Shown here: one piece after another, positions 1,815-16,903 of the stretch
Layout: each line of letters opens with the position of its first letter
Position numbering within the stretch: the stretch's first letter is position 1
From: Pseudidiomarina marina
Lineage (GTDB): Bacteria; Pseudomonadota; Gammaproteobacteria; Enterobacterales; Alteromonadaceae
Direction of reading: 5' to 3'
NCBI RefSeq assembly: GCF_003987045.1
Contig: NZ_PIPZ01000002.1
Span: forward strand, 496,001 to 560,000
DNA: 64,000 nucleotides
Program-made: the position numbers and the translations under genes
Notes under the pieces: generated by a model
Told to the model about the DNA's origin: nothing
The model's database searches: none
Seen by the model: only the letters and a program-made list of their open reading frames with translations

Positions 1815-1841
1815 TTATCGGCGCGAACGCTTAAGACTTAA
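1815..1841 (-). promoter_or_regulatory. Sigma-28 (FliA) promoter for motAB
   Basis: On the minus strand the sequence reads TTAAGTCT, 11 nt, GCCGATAA, close to the FliA consensus TAAAGTTT-N11-GCCGATAA (6/8 and 8/8). It overlaps the flhC stop codon and lies 37 nt before the motA GTG. This would place motAB in the late class while flhDC is controlled separately. Confidence 0.75.
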
Positions 1842-2383
1842 ATATCTTTTCGCGATTTTGAGGTTTTTTGCTTGAGCGGCTTACCCGCTCTTGAGGGAGG
1901 TTGACACACCCCACAAATATAATCCGCATCGGGTGTATGAGCATGATTAACAAATTGTAGCCCGCAGCAATTGCATTTAGACAACTGGAACATATCACTT
2001 TCAAAGAAACGCACTAATGTCCAAGCTCGCGTTAGCGCCAGAACCTCTTCTTCACCGCTCAGTTGAATATGTTCTTGGTAGAGTTTGTAGGCTTTAATAA
2101 ATGCCTGCATCCGTTCCAGTTTCTGCCCTTCTCGCAAGCGCGAATATATATTGAAGAAGAACGACGAATGGACGTTAGGTTGCCATGTCATGAACCAATC
2201 GGTTGAAAATGGCAACATTCCTTTGGGAGGTGATTTGCCTGAAACTTCTTTATACAACCGAACTAAGCGGCCGCGATTCAAACTCACCTCTGATTCTAAA
2301 ACTTGCAACCGAGCACCAAGTTCAATGAGCTCTATTGCAAGCTGTACCTGATTGAGTTCTTCAAGAAGTTTCTTAGCAGTCAT
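1838..2383 (-). CDS. flhC: Flagellar master transcriptional activator FlhC
   Basis: FlhC forms the FlhD4C2 complex that activates class-II flagellar promoters. The 181-residue product aligns with E. coli FlhC (192) through ELIELGARLQVLESEVSLNR, SPPKGMLPFSTDWFMTW and LALTRAWTLVRF. It keeps the zinc-binding cysteines (CNCCG and, about 20 residues later, CGVC followed by QPPSR). The C-terminus is about ten residues shorter than in E. coli. The first in-frame codon is a TTG at 2386; I prefer the ATG at 2383. Together with flhD it indicates that this flagellum follows the FlhDC hierarchy, not the FlrA/FleQ one usual for polar flagella of marine gammaproteobacteria. Confidence 0.96.
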   Translation of the reverse strand: MTAKKLLEELNQVQLAIELIELGARLQVLESEVSLNRGRLVRLYKEVSGKSPPKGMLPFSTDWFMTWQPNVHSSFFFNIYSRLREGQKLERMQAFIKAYKLYQEHIQLSGEEEVLALTRAWTLVRFFESDMFQLSKCNCCGLQFVNHAHTPDADYICGVCQPPSRAGKPLKQKTSKSRKDI

Positions 2384-2404
2384 CAAGGATTCTTTATGTT
2401 TAGG

Positions 2405-2704
2405 TTAAGCGGAAGCCATGTGCATCGCTATATGAGTTGCCTGCATACCGGTGTCACGCTTGTTAGTCAAAATCGCTTTTAAGTGGCTTACCGAACCCAA
2501 ATTAGGTTGTAGAAGACTTTGCGGCTGACGCGCCAACATGGTTAATTCCTTCGCAGACATATCAGCAATAAGATCAGCTAATTCATCGTCGATTTTTAAT
2601 CGGAAAATTGCGGTATCGCGATCTTCGACGATTAATTTCTGAACCAACATCAGGTAACTGAAATTTAATTCCTGAAGTTCAGAAATAGTCTTACTGTGAC
2701 TCAT
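2405..2704 (-). CDS. flhD: Flagellar master transcriptional regulator FlhD
   Basis: Partner of FlhC in the class-I master regulator. The 99 residues carry the FlhD signature ELNFSYLMLVQKLIVEDRDTA and the helical C-terminus with MLARQPQSLLQPN; E. coli FlhD is 116-119 residues, so this is a little short at the C-terminus. GGAGAA lies 8 nt before the ATG. It is the first gene of flhD-flhC, with flhC starting 21 nt downstream. The 160-nt upstream region holds a perfect palindrome at 2784-2801. Confidence 0.95.
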   Translation of the reverse strand: MSHSKTISELQELNFSYLMLVQKLIVEDRDTAIFRLKIDDELADLIADMSAKELTMLARQPQSLLQPNLGSVSHLKAILTNKRDTGMQATHIAMHMASA

Positions 2705-2864: not shown

Positions 2865-3134
2865 TCAGCGGCTTGCATCAACCGATTTTGCCCAAATCAA
2901 CAATTCCGCAACAACAAGCCAAAGCGTTTGCGGTATATATTCATCAAGATCAATTTGCGATAAAAGATCGACCAGTTCTGGTGAATCGTGGACAAACACA
3001 TTATGCTCGCTTGCCAGCGCTATAATCTTATCGGCGATCAAACCTTCCCCTTTTGCGACTATTTTAGGTGCCGGTTCGAATTCCTGATATCGCAAGGCAA
3101 CTGCCTTTTTGGTTTTTGAAAGGTCATCTGCCAT
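2865..3134 (-). CDS. FlhB C-terminus-like export-switch protein (FhlB)
   Basis: An 89-residue protein resembling only the cytoplasmic C-terminal domain of FlhB/YscU export-switch proteins. Visible are KAVALRYQ (compare the ALRY element just after the NPTH cleavage site of FlhB), PKIVAKGEGLIADKIIALA, and DLLSQIDLDEYIPQTLWLVVAELL. It has no membrane segments and no NPTH autocleavage motif. Its ATG overlaps the stop of the FliK-like gene (TGATG), so the two are probably translationally coupled. Such small FlhB-like genes are known beside a second fliK-like gene in other bacteria; their role in substrate switching is inferred. It cannot replace membrane-bound FlhB. Confidence 0.75.
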   Translation of the reverse strand: MADDLSKTKKAVALRYQEFEPAPKIVAKGEGLIADKIIALASEHNVFVHDSPELVDLLSQIDLDEYIPQTLWLVVAELLIWAKSVDASR

Positions 3135-3958
3135 CACGGTAACCTCGACACTGGAATGCTATCAATCTCCACGCCGGCTCCTAGTCGCAAGCGCGCCATT
3201 AAACGGGTTGTTGCTTCTTGCAATGATGCAACCAACGGTTCTGCACATTGTAGCTGCATCGTAAGATGCTTTTGTGACAGCCGCATTTGCGCGCGGATCT
3301 CGCCCACCTGCGGCAGGGTGAGCTTTAATTCACTGGTCCATGCCGGCGGTTCTGGCTCTTCTCCTTGTTTACGGCGTTGTTCATCGCGCCAACGTTGTAC
3401 CAAAGGATTCACATCTGGTTGCACTAACCACTGCAAATGCGCTTGTGGCCACAATTCAGATTCAATACGAATAATACCCGAATTCAGCAACTCAAGTTGC
3501 TGACCTAAAATCGCTTGTATTTGTGGTGAGCTTGCTCGAAATTGCCCAAGGTTTTGTGGTTGCTGGCGTACCTGCAGGAATGGGACTTTCTCTGCTGCCC
3601 ACCGGGCTAATAACGCTTCGTAAAATAATCCTGAGTCTTTCACAATTGTCTGTAATCGCCCCATCAACGTGAGTGTGTCGAGCTGCGTTGACGCTGGGAA
3701 TAAAGGTGCATCCGGCTTGATATGCCCACCCATTTGCTGCGAAGACGGTTGCATTTGTTGTGGTACTTGTTGTTGAAACGACTGAATCAATTGGATTAGC
3801 CGAGCAATTTGCTGACCGGCTTGACTAAATTCGGTGGTGCTTGCGGTAGCTTGTATGGGAGCCACTGGCAAGGTGTGGCGAGGGAGGAGGTCCACCGTTG
3901 AACGTTGCTTGGCAACTTGGTGGACCAAAGTATCCAAAAGAGGAGTTATACTACTCAA
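3134..3958 (-). CDS. Second FliK-like protein (flagellar hook-length control C-terminal domain)
   Basis: 274 residues with a Gln-rich N-terminal half, a central part with LQTIVKDSGLFYEALLARWA, and a C-terminal segment resembling the Flg_hook domain of FliK (ELKLTLPQVGEIRAQMRLSQKHLTMQL). The start codon is a TTG at 3958 overlapping the fliT stop (TTGA); no ATG occurs for about 65 codons, so coupled translation from fliT is likely. It pairs with the FlhB-tail-like gene just downstream. The canonical fliK is at 15668-16903, so the system has two FliK-type proteins. The function of this one is inferred only. Confidence 0.7.
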   Translation of the reverse strand: MSSITPLLDTLVHQVAKQRSTVDLLPRHTLPVAPIQATASTTEFSQAGQQIARLIQLIQSFQQQVPQQMQPSSQQMGGHIKPDAPLFPASTQLDTLTLMGRLQTIVKDSGLFYEALLARWAAEKVPFLQVRQQPQNLGQFRASSPQIQAILGQQLELLNSGIIRIESELWPQAHLQWLVQPDVNPLVQRWRDEQRRKQGEEPEPPAWTSELKLTLPQVGEIRAQMRLSQKHLTMQLQCAEPLVASLQEATTRLMARLRLGAGVEIDSIPVSRLP

Positions 3959-4257
3959 CTGCTATAGGTGTGCTCGAGCTTCTGCTTTTTCTGCATGCTG
4001 AGCAACGTCTGCTCCAACATGGTGCGACGCGCGACTAACCGCTCCCGAATCTCACGGTCTTGATCCATGATGGTGCTCAAAAGTTGTAACTTGCTAAGTT
4101 GCTGGTCCTCAGACAACTTAACTCCGGCTTCGGCATGGCTCAACCGCTCAACCTCACGAACGTACTCGACTTCCGTTTCAATTAAGGCTTCCCAGTCTTC
4201 GTTGCGCACACTGGCGAGCATTCTGTTCGAATGTTCCAGTAGCGTCTGATACGACAT
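3955..4257 (-). CDS. fliT: Flagellar export chaperone FliT-like protein
   Basis: A 100-residue, almost wholly helical, charged protein (SYQTLLEHSNRMLASVRNEDWEAL), in the size and position of FliT, the FliD chaperone that in enterics also dampens FlhDC activity. An upstream in-frame start would add 19 residues, but the ATG at 4257 has an excellent GGAGG 5 nt before it, so I chose that. The fliD-fliS-fliT order supports the call. Sequence conservation of FliT is low, so context carries much of the evidence. Confidence 0.75.
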   Translation of the reverse strand: MSYQTLLEHSNRMLASVRNEDWEALIETEVEYVREVERLSHAEAGVKLSEDQQLSKLQLLSTIMDQDREIRERLVARRTMLEQTLLSMQKKQKLEHTYSS

Positions 4258-4319
4258 AATGACCTCCGTCGGTGACATCAGGTAGTCACGTTGTAGTTTT
4301 GGTTGCGCGGCCACGTGCC

Positions 4320-4718
4320 TTACGCCCCCTCAACCTGTGGTTGAATCTCTTTCCATGCAGAGCCGATTTGTTCTAAAAGCTCTGCAGCTTCGTCTAACTT
4401 GGCGACATCGTTCTTTAAATTCGCTTTAAGCAAGAGTTCACTCACGTATAAGTAGATTGACTCTAACCGCTCAGCTAGCTCGCCGCCTTTTTCTTTATCT
4501 AGCGCCGCCAATAAACCCAGGTGCACAATATCTGTTGCTTTAGCAATGGCCTTCCCTTTTTCTGCAACGTTTCCGTTTTCCATATGCAACTTGGCCGCTC
4601 TGATTTGCTTTTGCACGCCATCAAATAACATTACAATGAGCTTGTGCGGGCTTGCAGAAAGCACATGACTCTCTACATCCACACGACCATAAGCTGCTGC
4701 ACCACGCATACCGTACAT
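4320..4718 (-). CDS. fliS: Flagellin export chaperone FliS
   Basis: Cytoplasmic chaperone that binds the flagellin C-terminus before export. The 132 residues show the family hallmarks: an N-terminal aromatic/GAAAYGRVDVESHVLSASP stretch, HKLIVMLFDGV, then a helical bundle with IYLYVSELLLKANLKND. Length is normal. It starts 11 nt after fliD and lies before fliT, so all three probably share the sigma-28 promoter at 6181-6207. Confidence 0.95.
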   Translation of the reverse strand: MYGMRGAAAYGRVDVESHVLSASPHKLIVMLFDGVQKQIRAAKLHMENGNVAEKGKAIAKATDIVHLGLLAALDKEKGGELAERLESIYLYVSELLLKANLKNDVAKLDEAAELLEQIGSAWKEIQPQVEGA

Positions 4719-4729
4719 GATAATTCCCT

Positions 4730-6088
4730 CTAGTTACCTTGGCCTAACTGCGCATTTAATGATGCGAATTGTTGTTGCAAGTAAGCGCTGGTTGAATTCA
4801 TGCTCGCAATCATGCTGTCCATTTGTGCGAATTGCTTACGATAGATTTCCACTGTTGATGCAATTCGTTGTTCTTCTTGGAAGTAACGGTCATCTAAGCG
4901 TTCAAGCGTACTCTCGAACCCTTTGATTCGACTATTGATTGGGCCTTCATCGGCTAAAAGATTGCTCAACGTTGTCTTTGCCTTGTCGGCAAAACCTTCT
5001 ATCGTATCTGTACCTGCGAAAAACTCTTGCAACATTGGCAAGTCATTTTGGACGACATTTGCGAGCGCTTCTTCATCCACTTTTAACTTGCCGCCAAGTT
5101 CTCGCGAAATGCCAATATCACCAAGCCTGGTAAACTGACTTGCAACCGTTTCACTCAGCAGGTTTCGAAGACGAGATTCGATCGTTCTCACGCCACTGTC
5201 ACCTAACAACTGGCCAGCAACTTGTGAGCCTTCGTCGTATTTCGTCATATCAGTAATGAGTTGCTGGAGCTCATTAAATGACTCAACAAAGTCGTTCACA
5301 TTTCCTGAAATTGATTCGGCATCACGCGTAATACTGACTTGCGCTTGCCCTTCTTTCGCCAACGAAAGCGTCACACCTTGAATTGCATTCTCAACAACAT
5401 TTGTCTGGCTCGTAATAGCAACACCATTGACTGAAAGCGTTGCATTCGATGCAGCCACTTCAGTAGAGACATCCGTCGCCACATTGCCGGCAAGAGCGCC
5501 TCCGAAGGTGATATCAGCAATAGCAGAATCGGTTCCTGTGCTCGCGGAACTAAAAACCAACCGATATGGGTTACCGCTTCCATCATTTATAATTGAAGCT
5601 TGAACATCAGTTTGTGCGTTATTTACGGCACTTCGAATATCTTCTAACGACGTTGCGCCATCCGCTAAATCGATACTATGTGTTGTACCATTCGCTAGAG
5701 TGAGGCTTACATTTCCCGTACCTGTTCCAATTTGTGCAGCACTATCAGTAACTCCCTGAGTCGCAATGCTATAGCTTCTAGCTAACCCCGTCACATTGAC
5801 GTCGAAGGTACCCGTCGGTGTATTCGATGCAGCGGCAACAGTCAGCACATCAGAATTAACTGAGCTTTTCGTCGCTTTAAATGTTGGCGTTAAATTGAGA
5901 GCGCTAGTTGCGTCTTGAAATTTAGTTAACGCGCTCTGTAGCTTGCCATAGGCAGAAATTCTCGCTTCAAAGCTCTTTTGCTGTAACGAGATCGGTTGTA
6001 GGCGCTGCCGCTCAGCTGCTTCCAGCTGATTTAGTAAGCCGTTCAGGTCGAGACCCGAACCGATACCTAATGCTGCTATTGATGCCAT
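4730..6088 (-). CDS. fliD: Flagellar filament cap protein FliD
   Basis: Capping protein at the filament tip that promotes flagellin folding. The 452 residues have the conserved N-terminus (ALGIGSGLDLNGLLNQLEAAE, RISAYGKLQSALTKF), a variable middle, and the C-terminal helical region (RYFQEEQRIASTVEIYRKQFAQMDSMIASMNSTSAYLQQQF). AGGGG precedes the ATG. It heads the fliD-fliS-fliT-fliK-like-fhlB string, with a sigma-28 promoter 93 nt upstream. Confidence 0.96.
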   Translation of the reverse strand: MASIAALGIGSGLDLNGLLNQLEAAERQRLQPISLQQKSFEARISAYGKLQSALTKFQDATSALNLTPTFKATKSSVNSDVLTVAAASNTPTGTFDVNVTGLARSYSIATQGVTDSAAQIGTGTGNVSLTLANGTTHSIDLADGATSLEDIRSAVNNAQTDVQASIINDGSGNPYRLVFSSASTGTDSAIADITFGGALAGNVATDVSTEVAASNATLSVNGVAITSQTNVVENAIQGVTLSLAKEGQAQVSITRDAESISGNVNDFVESFNELQQLITDMTKYDEGSQVAGQLLGDSGVRTIESRLRNLLSETVASQFTRLGDIGISRELGGKLKVDEEALANVVQNDLPMLQEFFAGTDTIEGFADKAKTTLSNLLADEGPINSRIKGFESTLERLDDRYFQEEQRIASTVEIYRKQFAQMDSMIASMNSTSAYLQQQFASLNAQLGQGN

Positions 6089-6180
6089 GGTGCTAACCCC
6101 TATTTCTCATGCCAATCAGTTTGCATGAATAAATTCAATTCAAAACCGATAAAAAGCGACGCAAAACACGCCTATTCTGT

Positions 6181-6207
6181 ATATCGGCCACAATTTGTTC
6201 AACTTTA
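6181..6207 (-). promoter_or_regulatory. Sigma-28 (FliA) promoter for fliDST
   Basis: The minus strand reads TAAAGTTG, 11 nt, GCCGATAT, matching the FliA consensus at 7/8 and 7/8 with exact spacing. It sits in the 148-nt gap between the PilZ/HD-GYP gene and fliD. Confidence 0.85.
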
Positions 6208-6236
6208 GTGATTTTTTCGGTTACCGGAGAAATGCT

Positions 6237-7952
6237 TCAACTTTCCGGTATTAAAATATCGCGAATACGCCCCAATTCAGCTAGCGCAGCGCCTTCAATG
6301 GGGGAACCTAATTTATCATCAGGAGCCATTTTATGTGGCGAGATTCGAACACGATTGACGCGCTTTTTAGCGTCTAAGCCAACAACCCAGCCAAACTGAC
6401 CTTTTTCAAAACGGAGCAATGAACCAATAGGTAGCGGCCCGAAATGTGCAACGTAACGCTTCACCCACGCTTCATCAAACTGATCTAGCCTTGTTTGCAT
6501 TGATTTGCCAGCGGCAACAGGCGTTATCGCTGGACGATCAGGTCGGTGCCGCTGCATTGCATCAATTGCATCGACCACCGCAGCTGCCCGCGCCAACTGA
6601 CCCAATTGCTTGTCCTTAAGTCCATTGGGATAACCGGAGCCATCCAAGCGTTCATTGATTTGTGCAATCACATTGTCACGAACAACCGGCGCAAGCCACT
6701 TCACACCGTCTAATTTTTCAATAATCGCTTCCACGTGACTTTGCATTTCTTCGTACACATCGGTACTTAATGTCGTCGCTTTCCAAATTTCCGGGGGAAG
6801 CGTGCCCTTACCAAGATCATGAACCATTGCCGCCGCAACCACTGCTTTACGCAGGTCACGCGGCATTTTTGCCGCATTTAACAAATCAGCCAAACGAACG
6901 GCAACAGCTAACCCATGCTTCACCCAGCGCGATTCGCGATGAATACAATGCACCGAGAATAAGGTTTCTTGGCGGTCATCTTCGAGCATATCCAAAATGC
7001 GGTCGGCATGAAGTGACAACTGCGACGAGTTCACCGGTTGCCCTTGCTTCATCACCACCATCTGACTATCAAGATAACCGGCAATGCGAGCCATTTTTCG
7101 AGCCATCGGTGTCGCATAAGTATGCCCATGGCGGCGACTTAGCTTCTTGTCGTTTTCATCGCGAACGCGGAACAATTCAGATTCACTGCGATTATCTCCG
7201 TTACCCGCACTGCGCGACGCCTCGCGCTCGATTTCACGAACATAACCCCAAATTTCTCGTTCTTGCGGTTTACTCACATCTTCAAATTCAAATCCAACCG
7301 CTAGCACTTGACGATCATTGTCGGTTTTTAAATGCCGCACTTTGGCTTTTACTTCAAACGAGGTACCGTTCGGAAAATACAACTCAATCTCAGTCGCAAT
7401 ATCTGGTAACACTCGCGACACGCCATCTTGCATGAAAAACTCTGCCAAACACCCTGTGGCCGACAGATCTTTCAAGTCGCCCTGTAGCTCGACGAGTTCA
7501 TCTTTATCGTTATCTTTAGTGCGAACATGTACACCCACGTTCATGCCAATACGCAAACTGGCGCGGAAACTCGCGCGACGCTGTTTCACATGAATTTCGG
7601 TAGGCCAATCGACATAGGCTAGAAGACGACTATCAACCGTGGTGAATTCGCGAACAGCCATGGGGTTCGAGCGAACGAGACCACCGGGGGTAAAACCTGA
7701 AAGGATAAACTTACCACCACGTCGCAGTGGTGGCGCTACATCACGAATCGCGGTGAGATCAAAAAGGAGGTAATCTTCTTCGAGTTGTTCAACCAGCACC
7801 ACAGGATGATCTTTTTCCGCAGGCCCAAGCAACGTCAACACCGCCACGCCCGGCTGACTCAATGCGTCATAATATGTCGCAAGCTCAACCAAGCTGTTTA
7901 TTGGCGTAAATTCATTTTCGCTCGTTTGAGCGTGTTGACTGGCCTCGCTCAC
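6237..7952 (-). CDS. YcgR-like PilZ domain fused to HD-GYP domain (c-di-GMP effector, possible flagellar brake)
   Basis: A 571-residue cytoplasmic protein. Residues about 15-120 resemble the YcgR N-terminal (PilZN) domain. Residues about 125-250 are a PilZ domain with the c-di-GMP motifs RRASFR and DLSATG. After a charged linker, residues about 300-500 form an HD-GYP domain: VKHG, VHDLGKGTLP (HD plus the Lys and Pro of the family), SHVEAI and LDGSGYP. The usual HHE before DGxGYP reads INE, so two metal-ligand histidines appear lost and phosphodiesterase activity is doubtful. The start is GTG with AAAGGAG. It lies divergent to fliC and has its own sigma-28 promoter, implying a role in braking or tuning this flagellum. 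Confidence 0.88.
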   Translation of the reverse strand: MSEASQHAQTSENEFTPINSLVELATYYDALSQPGVAVLTLLGPAEKDHPVVLVEQLEEDYLLFDLTAIRDVAPPLRRGGKFILSGFTPGGLVRSNPMAVREFTTVDSRLLAYVDWPTEIHVKQRRASFRASLRIGMNVGVHVRTKDNDKDELVELQGDLKDLSATGCLAEFFMQDGVSRVLPDIATEIELYFPNGTSFEVKAKVRHLKTDNDRQVLAVGFEFEDVSKPQEREIWGYVREIEREASRSAGNGDNRSESELFRVRDENDKKLSRRHGHTYATPMARKMARIAGYLDSQMVVMKQGQPVNSSQLSLHADRILDMLEDDRQETLFSVHCIHRESRWVKHGLAVAVRLADLLNAAKMPRDLRKAVVAAAMVHDLGKGTLPPEIWKATTLSTDVYEEMQSHVEAIIEKLDGVKWLAPVVRDNVIAQINERLDGSGYPNGLKDKQLGQLARAAAVVDAIDAMQRHRPDRPAITPVAAGKSMQTRLDQFDEAWVKRYVAHFGPLPIGSLLRFEKGQFGWVVGLDAKKRVNRVRISPHKMAPDDKLGSPIEGAALAELGRIRDILIPES

Positions 7953-8084: not shown

Positions 8085-8111
8085 TAAAGGTTTTTTTTAA
8101 CCCACCGATAA
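8085..8111 (+). promoter_or_regulatory. fliC: Sigma-28 (FliA) promoter for fliC
   Basis: TAAAGGTT, 11 nt, ACCGATAA, one mismatch in each half of the FliA consensus. It is 59 nt before the fliC start, leaving a leader with AGAAGGAA just before the ATG. Confidence 0.88.
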
Positions 8112-8170: not shown

Positions 8171-8995
8171 ATGTCAGTTATCAACACAAACATGACCTCA
8201 CTGATCGGTCAGCAAAACCTCCAGAAGTCACAGTCTTCACTGCAAACTTCAATGGAACGTCTGTCTTCAGGCCTGCGTATCAACAGCGCCAAAGACGATG
8301 CAGCGGGTCAAGCAATTGCTAACCGCATGACTGCACAAATTACTGGTATGCGTCAGGCTCAGCGTAACGCTAACGACGGTATCTCTATGGTGCAAACTAT
8401 GGAAGGCGGCTTAAACCAAATCAACGACAACTTACAACGTATTCGTGAATTGGCAGTTCAAGCAGCGTCTGATACTAACAGCGCTGATGACCGTACTTCA
8501 ATTCAAACAGAAATCACCGAGCGTGTTGCGGAAATCGACCGTATCGCTGGCGGCGCTAGTTTCAACGGCACAAACTTGCTTGACGGAAGCGCTCTAGCAC
8601 CATTACAGATTCAAGTTGGCGCAAACACAACTGCAAATGATTCAATTCAAGTCGCTACTGTAGACGCAACTTCAGCAACACTTGGCGTAAACGCTTTGAC
8701 TGTTGATAGCGCTGTAAATGCTCAAGCAGCGATTGATGCCGTTGATACCGCCATGGCAACAATTGACACCTCGCGCAGCACTTTGGGTGCGACCCTGAAC
8801 CGCTTTGATTCAGTTGTTGAAAACTTAGCAACAACTTCAACCAACTTGTCTGCTGCACGTTCGCGTATTGAAGATGCTGACTATGCAGTTGAAGTATCGA
8901 ACATGACCCGTTCACAAATCTTGCAACAGGCTGGTACTTCGGTTCTTGCGCAAGCAAACCAGGTACCACAGTCAGTATTGTCACTGTTGGGTTAA
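8171..8995 (+). CDS. fliC: Flagellin FliC (short, 274 residues)
   Basis: Filament subunit. The conserved N-terminal D0/D1 (SVINTNMTSLIGQQNLQKSQ, MERLSSGLRINSAKDDAAGQ, ANDGISMVQTMEGGL) and C-terminal D1/D0 (ARSRIEDADYAVEVSNMTR, QILQQAGTSVLAQANQVPQ, SVLSLLG) are complete. The variable central region is reduced to about 60 residues, so the outer domains are minimal. Only one flagellin gene is in the window. It is flanked by a strong sigma-28 promoter and a rho-independent terminator, so it is probably a monocistronic, highly expressed unit. Confidence 0.97.
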   Translation: MSVINTNMTSLIGQQNLQKSQSSLQTSMERLSSGLRINSAKDDAAGQAIANRMTAQITGMRQAQRNANDGISMVQTMEGGLNQINDNLQRIRELAVQAASDTNSADDRTSIQTEITERVAEIDRIAGGASFNGTNLLDGSALAPLQIQVGANTTANDSIQVATVDATSATLGVNALTVDSAVNAQAAIDAVDTAMATIDTSRSTLGATLNRFDSVVENLATTSTNLSAARSRIEDADYAVEVSNMTRSQILQQAGTSVLAQANQVPQSVLSLLG

Positions 8996-15210: not shown

Positions 15211-15657
15211 ATGAATGGATTTGTTTTAGCCCACTTGACTGAGCAAGCTGAGAAAGCACGCAATGAGGCAGCCAAATTATTGGCAGAAGAACGCCAAAAC
15301 AAACACAAAATTGCGCAACAGTTACAAACGTTACAACAATATCGAAACGATTATGCGGTGCAGCTTCATCAACAGATGCAAAACGGTATCGCGAGCCATT
15401 TACTAAGCAACTATCGTCAGTTTTTAGCGAGTTTAGATAGCGCCGTCGCGCGGGCTCAAAATGCGTTAGTCGATCAAGAAACAAAAGTAGATAAAAGCCA
15501 ACAATTTTGGCAGACCAAACAACGTAAATTGGCATCTTATGAAACCTTAGCTGACCGCAAGCAGGCAGCCGAAGTTAAAGTAGCCATGAAACACGAACAG
15601 AAGCTCGCTGATGAGCTGTCGTTAGCCATGTACATGCGTCAGCGTGGGCTGCGTTAG
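15211..15657 (+). CDS. fliJ: Flagellar export protein FliJ
   Basis: Coiled-coil stalk protein of the FliHIJ export complex. 148 residues, almost entirely helical and rich in Ala, Gln, Lys and Glu, ending in a typical FliJ tail (LADRKQAAEVKVAMKHEQKLADEL). It starts 2 nt after the fliI stop. The identification rests on coiled-coil character, size and position, all of which fit FliJ. Confidence 0.92.
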   Translation: MNGFVLAHLTEQAEKARNEAAKLLAEERQNKHKIAQQLQTLQQYRNDYAVQLHQQMQNGIASHLLSNYRQFLASLDSAVARAQNALVDQETKVDKSQQFWQTKQRKLASYETLADRKQAAEVKVAMKHEQKLADELSLAMYMRQRGLR

Positions 15658-15667
15658 GAGAAAAAAG

Positions 15668-16903
15668 GTGAGTATGATGGTTAATTTCAATAATTTAATG
15701 ACGACTACACCAGCCAGCACCAAAGGCGCTGCTGCATCGACAGATACACAAGCACCGATCTCAGGCTTTGCTGCGCTTTTTGCCGCGCTGTCGAACCACT
15801 CCGGCTCACAATCTGGGGTAAACACCTACTCATTCGACGCCACAACAACAGAAGCTCAGCTTCAGCAATTGGCCAACAATTTAAAGCCAAGTGAGCAAGA
15901 GCAGTTACTAGAGCAGGCCGAGTTGAATCCCGAAGCCATTGCTCAGATTTTAGCGCAGCTACAACAGCAACAAGCTTTGCAACAGCCTCAATCAGCCCAG
16001 TCGGTTGCGAACAAGCCATCTGTGCAGGCCGTTGTTGCGAATGCTGTTAGCGCAGCTCAACCGCAACGCCAACCGGTAGCAACCAACCAGATATCGCCGG
16101 TCATCACTGATGAACCAAGTACAACGACTGCCTCCGCCCCTGTCAGTAATAATGCAGTGTCGACAAAACCTGTCGAGCCATTAGCCGCGTCTGTTCCTGT
16201 CGCTACACCTGAACCTGAACAGGCAAAACCTGACATCCGTGGCTCAAGTGCGCCGCTGACAACTGAGTTGAATTCAGTTAAACCGACCACTCAACTAGAA
16301 ACCACTCGTACCGTTCAAGCACCGGTTTCGACGATGAGCGCAAGCGTCGTCATGGTTGAAGCACCGGTTGCTCAATCAGTGCAATCAGCCCAAACGGCAC
16401 CAACAACACCAAGCACAACAGCAGCGACGGCGTCACTTGCAGCACCGGTCGGTAGCCAAGCTTGGGCGAACCAATTACAACAAAACGTGATGCAAATGGT
16501 CATGCATAATCAAAATGAAATGACTTTACGCTTGCATCCAGCAGAACTTGGCCCGCTACAAGTTCAGTTGCGCATGGATGACAACACGGCGCAGTTAAAT
16601 ATTTTGACGCACAGCCAACAGGTTCGTGGCGCGCTAGAACAAGCTATGTCGACCTTGCGTGATGCACTTGCTAACCAAGGCATTCAATTGGGTGAATCGC
16701 AAGTGAGCGATCAAGGACAGCAATTTGCGCAACAGCAGGCTCGCCAGCAAGCACAACAATGGGCAGCAAATTCGCAAAATAATGGACAAAATACCAACGA
16801 AAGCACTGTAGAAAATTCAGAATCGGCCGAGAATACTGACATGGGCTCAAATTCTCGGCATACTGCCGCCGCTCATAACGGTCAAGTTGATACGTTTGCT
16901 TAA
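15668..16903 (+). CDS. fliK: Flagellar hook-length control protein FliK
   Basis: Secreted ruler that switches export from hook to filament substrates. About 411 residues: a long Pro/Thr/Ser/Gln/Ala-rich N-terminal and central region typical of the ruler, and a C-terminal Flg_hook domain (NEMTLRLHPAELGPLQVQLRMDD, then VRGALEQAMSTLRDALANQG). AGGAG lies 7 nt before a GTG at 15668; ATG codons follow at 15674 and 15677, so the true start is one of these. It is distinct from the FliK-like gene at 3134-3958. Confidence 0.92.
   Translation: MSMMVNFNNLMTTTPASTKGAAASTDTQAPISGFAALFAALSNHSGSQSGVNTYSFDATTTEAQLQQLANNLKPSEQEQLLEQAELNPEAIAQILAQLQQQQALQQPQSAQSVANKPSVQAVVANAVSAAQPQRQPVATNQISPVITDEPSTTTASAPVSNNAVSTKPVEPLAASVPVATPEPEQAKPDIRGSSAPLTTELNSVKPTTQLETTRTVQAPVSTMSASVVMVEAPVAQSVQSAQTAPTTPSTTAATASLAAPVGSQAWANQLQQNVMQMVMHNQNEMTLRLHPAELGPLQVQLRMDDNTAQLNILTHSQQVRGALEQAMSTLRDALANQGIQLGESQVSDQGQQFAQQQARQQAQQWAANSQNNGQNTNESTVENSESAENTDMGSNSRHTAAAHNGQVDTFA

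Follow-up and report, generated by a model that had tools for sequence, protein, structure and literature searches.

A fliK-like gene coupled to a gene for a stand-alone FlhB C-terminal domain at a flagellar locus of Pseudidiomarina marina and across genomes

Gene array and candidate promoter at the locus

The window, by which the whole stretch of 64,000 nucleotides analysed is meant (contig NZ_PIPZ01000002.1 of Pseudidiomarina marina), carries a tight minus-strand array of fliD, fliS, fliT, fliK2 and fhlB, in which fhlB is the last gene and is followed by flhD, flhC and mot-like genes. The features used in the analysis are as follows:

6181-6207, minus strand: sigma-28-type promoter-like site TAAAGTTG-N11-GCCGATAT, upstream of fliD (14/16 matches to the consensus)
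4730-6088, minus strand: fliD-like gene at the head of the array, a 452-aa open reading frame named from its position and by eye
4320-4718, minus strand: fliS (PF02561, E 1.2e-35)
3955-4314, minus strand: fliT (PF05400, E 6e-17), overlapping the fliK2 start
3134-3958, minus strand: fliK2, second FliK-like gene, 274 aa, TTG start at 3958 and stop at 3134
3593-3673, minus strand: FliK2-specific central motif, residues 96-122 (LTLMGRLQTIVKDSGLFYEALLARWAA), from the motif search
3146-3370, minus strand: Flg_hook (T3S4) domain of FliK2, residues 197-271 (PF02120)
2865-3134, minus strand: fhlB (flhX/ylqH type), 89 aa, ATG start at 3134; by sequence a stand-alone FlhBCC homologue
3066-3071, minus strand: FhlB A22-P23, aligned with Salmonella FlhB A286-P287 (first half of the pocket)
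2898-2909, minus strand: FhlB A76..L79, aligned with Salmonella A341 and L344 (second half of the pocket)
1838-2704, minus strand: flhC and flhD, directly downstream of fhlB (PF05280, E 2.2e-80; PF05247, E 1.9e-21)
15644-16903, plus strand: canonical fliK, 419 aa, product ending in VDTFA

In a preliminary description made from the sequence alone, fliK2 and fhlB had been presented as overlapping genes after fliT, and reading of the open reading frames bore out both the coordinates and the two junctions, with the fliT stop overlapping the fliK2 start as TTGA and the fliK2 stop overlapping the fhlB start as TGATG. A GTG at 3137 is an alternative fhlB start and would give a product of 90 aa. Full-length canonical flhB (an open frame of 397 codons) lies before the window start on the same contig, and the FlhB encoded by it has NPTH. 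The closest named relatives are Pseudidiomarina and Idiomarina species, with FhlB identities of 64 to 87%. Idiomarina loihiensis carries the pair (locus L008), and in Bacillus subtilis 168 it corresponds to ylqG/ylqH. The array is not a product of chance, since 34 genomes of the class sample described below, each of a different family, have a Flg_hook gene and fhlB in this same order; chance resemblance or an annotation artefact as the source of fliK2 and fhlB was ruled out by the profile matches and the recurrent pairing.

The candidate sigma-28-type site was found at the same place in the window and in the related loci L003-L009 and was absent there in L084 and L085, and so occurs in 8/10 loci of the window's clade. 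On the strength of this candidate site upstream of fliD, the pair is probably made after hook completion in this clade, that is, expressed after the export switch. In loci of other families a late promoter-like site was recorded in 5/37 (at or under 2% of background windows); outside the window's clade the data thus do not support a late promoter as something common to these pairs.

Sequence features of FhlB and FliK2

FhlB matched PF01312 with an E of 9.4e-16, only profile positions 259-334 of 335 being covered; the first 258 positions were unmatched and NPTH was absent, which means that both the membrane domain and the self-cleaving motif of FlhB are missing. In the alignment to E. coli FlhB it covered only the part after the cleavage motif. 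Together with the match to TIGR00789 (flhB_rel, E 1.8e-22), these results agreed with the earlier reading of an 89-residue protein that resembles the FlhB tail and lacks NPTH. The TIGR00789 score of 79.3 bits lies under the curated cut-off of 117.35, which was passed by no genome among the 40, 94 and 120 searched and therefore does not discriminate here. FhlB was 42% identical to the genome's own FlhB over residues 8-86, and its best PDB sequence match was chain B of 3b0z, an entry of Salmonella FlhBC. Judged from its sequence, FhlB is homologous to FlhBCC, the product of FlhB self-cleavage, and is encoded by a gene of its own; by profile it is assigned to the known family FhlB/FlhX/YlqH, whose three names we take to denote one family.

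In a tree built from few columns, with many weak forks and with no named FlhX or YlqH included, FhlB (53 rows) was split from FlhB (21 rows) with a support of 100/99, and this separation ruled out that fhlB arose from the flhB of the same genome by a recent duplication on the spot. Long N-terminal read-through in some open reading frames was trimmed ahead of alignment, and L073, in which the FhlB frame loses similarity halfway, was excluded from the column statistics, the tree and the motif counts. The structure model of FhlB (mean pLDDT 50.4, alignment of nine rows) returned EscU C-terminal chains in the first four Foldseek rows with E of 0.14 to 0.33, and was given no weight because of the weak pLDDT and these E values. 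For the idea that FhlB replaces Fluke, E. coli Flk gave 0 matches in 40 relatives, a result without weight because no positive control gave a signal in that sample.

According to the available parts of PMC9307174, residues A286, P287, A341 and L344 of Salmonella FlhBCC form the pocket in which early substrates dock, and secretion was wild-type with Ile or Val at the last of these positions. The corresponding residues were A-P-A-I/L in 49/53 FhlB and A-P-A-L in 21/21 FlhB, and the window's FhlB has A-P-A-L. The Arg of the PLARALY stretch (E. coli 319), invariant in the 21 FlhB, was kept in 6/53 FhlB, and one residue of the same stretch (E. coli position 322) was absent in 53/53 FhlB. The beta2-beta3 loop comprised 5 residues in 37, 6 in 13 (window included) and 7 in 3 of the 53 FhlB, and 7 residues in 20 and 6 in 1 of the 21 FlhB. 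In Salmonella FlhB a five-residue deletion in this loop blocked export of hook protein and flagellin (PMC3640470, available part), and by analogy the shorter loop suggests that FhlB may be unable simply to take the place of FlhBCC.

The C-terminus of FliK2 matched the PF02120 Flg_hook profile with an E of 7.6e-7 and 29.3 bits (Pfam cut-off 29.8), and the same place reached 32.8 bits, above the cut-off, in the genome search; the product can thus be called FliK-like, as had been claimed, on a borderline match. FliK2 lengths vary strongly between genomes, e.g. 262 and 988 aa. The central motif, built from 21 FliK2 including that of the window, was found in 36/49 FliK2 (five of the 49 being close relatives, window included) and 0/20 FliK, and in 15/28 of the FliK2 outside the motif-building set; all FliK2 starting at a contig end (L081, L083, L087 and L114) were among the 13 without it. 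The switch tail, defined as the last five residues with the pattern [LIVMF]D.[FYL][AVIL], was present in 18/20 FliK, the exceptions being those of the genomes G009 and G084 (in G084 the sequence stretch probably ends before the gene does), and in 3/45 FliK2, all three with Leu where the aromatic residue would stand. When no aromatic was required, the loosened pattern was found in 36/45 FliK2; the window's FliK2 ends in ...VSRLP, and neither the window nor L003-L009 has any such tail. In Salmonella FliK the last five residues and residues 301-350 matter for switching (PMC10965912, available part).

Taken by its sequence, FliK2 is a distinct FliK paralogue, with a central motif of its own and mostly without the aromatic tail of FliK. 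It matched TIGR02514 (yscP) weakly (E 3.5e-4, below the cut-off), the FliK2 profile gave no match among PDB sequences, and the FliK2 of four other genomes gave none with the NCBIfam models at E <= 0.1 except one weak match to a chaperone model. For the C-terminal part of the FliK2 model, which is weak overall (mean pLDDT 49.8, alignment of eight rows), the first structural match was the PscP SS domain 5cuk (Z 6.7) and the fourth the FliK C-domain 2rrl (Z 5.6), where Z < 8 may merely reflect a common arrangement.

Pairing and neighbourhood across genomes

Two gammaproteobacterial samples were used, namely 40 relatives, which are not independent since 24 of them belong to the window's genus, and 94 genomes spread over the class, in which FhlB was recognized by length as an open frame of < 250 codons. 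Among the relatives, FlhB-family matches were found in 27/40 genomes and a short FhlB in 24, and for 22 of these 24 fhlB the next gene upstream, in the same orientation, gave a Flg_hook match. The class sample gave FlhB-family matches in 51/94 genomes and a short copy in 31, with a Flg_hook match upstream in 31/31; three long-frame copies (G100, G101 and G103) that fall in the FhlB clade also have an upstream Flg_hook, which makes 34/34. Co-conservation of the two genes, the absence of which had been named beforehand as speaking against the idea, was therefore strong, with 55/57 fhlB copies paired in both samples together (G000, present in both, counted once). The control with full-length flhB was partly circular, the pairing script having counted any place with an upstream Flg_hook as FhlB: among 84 unique open frames of at least 250 codons (G000 counted once), three had an upstream Flg_hook, all of FhlB type, and the other 81 had none. 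The 17 class genomes with FlhB and without FhlB had no second Flg_hook above the cut-off (16 have one, G113 none).

In all 45 loci were fetched, some of them cut by contig ends, and for G034 and G035, the two unpaired relatives, the open reading frame upstream of fhlB was taken, with no Pfam Flg_hook match in either; the FliK2 central motif was present in that of G035 (iE 3e-4) and absent from that of G034. The nearest in-frame fhlB start overlapped the fliK2 stop as NTGA in 25/45 of these loci, L091, L101, L109 and L113 having been excluded from the first start-stop overlap count.

Outside the class, 34 genomes were searched with the Flg_hook profile, most of them chosen for short copies among the matches listed. 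Again among the matches listed, 22/40 short copies (33 genomes) were paired with an upstream Flg_hook and 18/40 were unpaired, 11 of the 18 in family f122; for two other unpaired copies an upstream Flg_hook match lay 3.9 and 8.3 kb away. In the gammaproteobacterial samples nearly every fhlB is thus paired, beyond them pairing is frequent without being the rule, and the unpaired copies indicate that FliK2 is not always needed. One paired and one unpaired fhlB copy were found together in G151, G158, G168, G187 and G203 (f122) and in G211 and G242 (f142), and two kinds of FhlB may coexist in such genomes.

FhlB without FlhB was seen in two class genomes, G118 (81% complete) and G073. The latter, a one-contig genome of 3.4 Mb and 100% completeness, has FliK2 and the FhlB frame that loses similarity halfway (L073, about 5150-6354) and gave no FlhB match at E 0.001; its pair looks like a remnant left behind when flagella were lost.

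Only loci of the window's clade showed the pair in a fliD array. Of the 45 fetched loci, 25 had a DUF2802-type gene and 23 a CheW-type gene at a distance of up to about 6 kb, mostly converging on the pair; ParA-like, MotB-like or CheB-type genes were near it in about twenty, and an ABC transporter gene in seven, accompanied in six by a gene for cytochrome c assembly. In the window's genus, g1, FlhB and FhlB occurred together in 15/24 genomes and neither in 9, and FlhC was found in 14 of the 15 FlhB-bearing genomes, none being found in G021, where the pair (L077) lies beside ABC transporter and cytochrome c assembly genes. In the tree, which holds FlhB of three g1 genomes only, G021 FlhB fell within a clade of 18 (99/95) to which the FlhB of G000, G009 and E. 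coli do not belong, and the FhlB of the window and nine relatives formed a clade (99/95) that excludes G021 FhlB. Since G021 is without FlhC and has a different type of both FlhB and FhlB, the simplest reading of these sequences would be that in g1 one flagellar system replaced another, each with its own pair. FlhC also gave weak matches, with E between about 1e-14 and 1e-17, in G054, G075 and G128 and at a second place in G015.

Possible role in the flagellar export switch

According to the available parts of PMC13344023 (June 2026), FliK-dependent loss of FlhBCC flips the export switch in Salmonella, FlhBCC is the dock for early substrates, FlhB without FlhBCC exports no hook protein, and the transition is termed irreversible; the words FlhX, Helicobacter and paralog are absent from the main text of that paper. 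The Yersinia homologue YscUCC dissociates too (PMC3504009, available part). FlhX is counted among flagellar components in the available parts of PMC10746217 and PMC9321776, and an flhX-fliK locus is mentioned in passing for Nitratiruptor. For the FliK2-FhlB pair as such, no dedicated paper was found in the literature searched, outside which most subscription papers lie. The earlier remark that the system is little described accordingly holds for the pair and does not hold for the stand-alone FlhB tail, which belongs to a known family that includes HP1575. This protein of Helicobacter pylori was reportedly described by Wand in 2006 as a 'spare part' that stands in when FlhBCC is deleted. To our knowledge, Salmonella has no FhlB.

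The window's FhlB shares with the FhlB/FlhX/YlqH family (TIGR00789), HP1575 included, the form of a stand-alone FlhBCC without NPTH or membrane domain, and differs in that its gene lies in a fliD array, overlapping there the stop codon of a FliK paralogue, and in that it scores below the TIGR00789 cut-off. It has the same domain and the same pocket residues as FlhBCC, whereas in comparison with FlhB it is without the membrane part, the cleavage motif, the invariant Arg and one PLARALY residue, and stands separate in the tree. FliK2 has a C-terminal Flg_hook domain as do FliK (PF02120) and PscP/YscP, but unlike FliK it is without the FliK-type aromatic tail and has its own central motif, which is absent from 20/20 FliK. 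What was known already is the FhlB family; what is added here is the conserved coupling of fhlB to the gene of a FliK paralogue that is distinct from FliK.

The preliminary description had proposed that the two proteins, as a soluble pair, could modulate the switch or control a different substrate step. The identities and the co-conservation on which it built have held, and the interpretation is made more specific by the kept pocket, the missing FliK2 tail and the late promoter-like site, on which the pair may be seen as modulating the export switch. Our tentative preference, held at somewhat less than an even chance, is that FhlB is an interchangeable FlhBCC able to dock on FlhBCN and that FliK2 is its dedicated T3S4-type partner. 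The loss of FlhBCC in Salmonella, the dissociation of YscUCC and the reported activity of HP1575, together with the kept pocket, favour this view of FhlB over the others; the effect might be to prolong early mode, to bring it back or to adjust the timing. From the sequence side the proposal draws on the identities of the two proteins, the near-obligate gammaproteobacterial pairing, the pocket, the motif and tail of FliK2, the in-step difference of FlhB and FhlB in g1 and the late-type site; docking on FlhBCN, binding between FliK2 and FhlB and the direction of the effect are what we infer from them. FhlB would be a free version of FlhBCC, the part that carries the early-substrate pocket and is lost at the switch from rod and hook to filament. 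Where the native FlhBCC is absent, FhlB would sit on the FlhB stump (FlhBCN) and keep or restore docking of early substrates. FliK2 would bind FhlB as FliK binds FlhBCC, and would hold, deliver or remove it, itself being presumably unable to perform the canonical switch. Against the proposal count the Arg and the residue at 322 that FhlB mostly or always lacks, its shorter loop, the 18 unpaired copies outside the class, the weak structure models and the patchy occurrence of the late-type site.

Several other readings were weighed against this one. FhlB might be a soluble decoy that stays in the cytosol and, with FliK2, adjusts when the switch occurs, through competition with FlhBCC over FliK or early substrates and without ever docking on FlhB. 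A protein that consists of the C-domain only, without the FlhB membrane part, and that keeps the substrate pocket yet lacks positions invariant in FlhB would suit such a role, as would a FliK2 that without the FliK tail could compete unproductively; the activity reported for HP1575 as a spare part, however, implies docking on FlhB, and the near one-to-one pairing of the genes suggests a dedicated complex and not a titrator, so that this reading is considered unlikely. A second, later checkpoint, at which the pair would act after the switch on late substrates (FliD, flagellin) or chaperones and not on the early dock, is decidedly unlikely in our judgement. It draws on the place of the pair at the end of a fliD-fliS-fliT array behind a sigma-28-type site in those 8/10 loci of the window's clade, but none of the fliD, fliS and fliT genes of the window belongs to a gene group common to at least 4 of 46 loci, roughly half of the remaining loci have DUF2802-type (25) or CheW-type (23) genes instead, and the conserved pocket is the one described for early substrates.

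A redundant back-up, with little effect in normal cells and serving only as insurance against loss of FlhBCC, is given a similarly small weight. The 'spare part' of the HP1575 title is in line with it, and so is the full-length FlhB of 20 FhlB-bearing genomes, which keeps a cleavage-type motif (16 NPTH, 2 NPEH and 2 NPSH); pairing over many families and the in-step difference in g1 are nevertheless hard to explain without regular use. The FlhB with NPEH are L144 and L147 (G028 and G026), and those with NPSH are L153 and L154 (G061 and G122).

A bolder form of the preferred reading of FhlB as an interchangeable FlhBCC is a module for resetting or reloading the switch, in which FhlB, expressed late and brought by FliK2 once the ejection of FlhBCC by FliK has put the machine into late mode, would re-dock on the stump and restore docking of early substrates. 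We regard this form as rather improbable. If it were true, a switch supposed to be irreversible would be reversible, or could be refitted with a different dock, and this would apply to many flagellated members of the Gammaproteobacteria and to some lineages beyond them. Most of what is known of the flagellar export switch comes from Salmonella, and a widespread pair of a free FlhBCC and a FliK-like protein suggests a further layer in many bacteria, by which a component of the switch that is ordinarily discarded may be replaced or reset.

Some minor observations were made around the pair and within the window. A gene for a pentapeptide-repeat protein lies near the pair in several families (L095:3663-4574, minus strand, and its group in 14 loci), as does a GGDEF-EAL gene (L093:6428-8263, plus strand, and its group in 12 loci). 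Further candidate sites of the sigma-28 type, agreeing at 13 to 15 of 16 positions, were located in the window at 1841, 8015 and 24158 on the minus strand and at 8085 and 9439 on the plus strand; sites of this type precede the mot-like ORF 915-1778, ORF 6237-7952, which has a weak match to a c-di-GMP phosphodiesterase, the flagellin-like ORF at 8171 and others.
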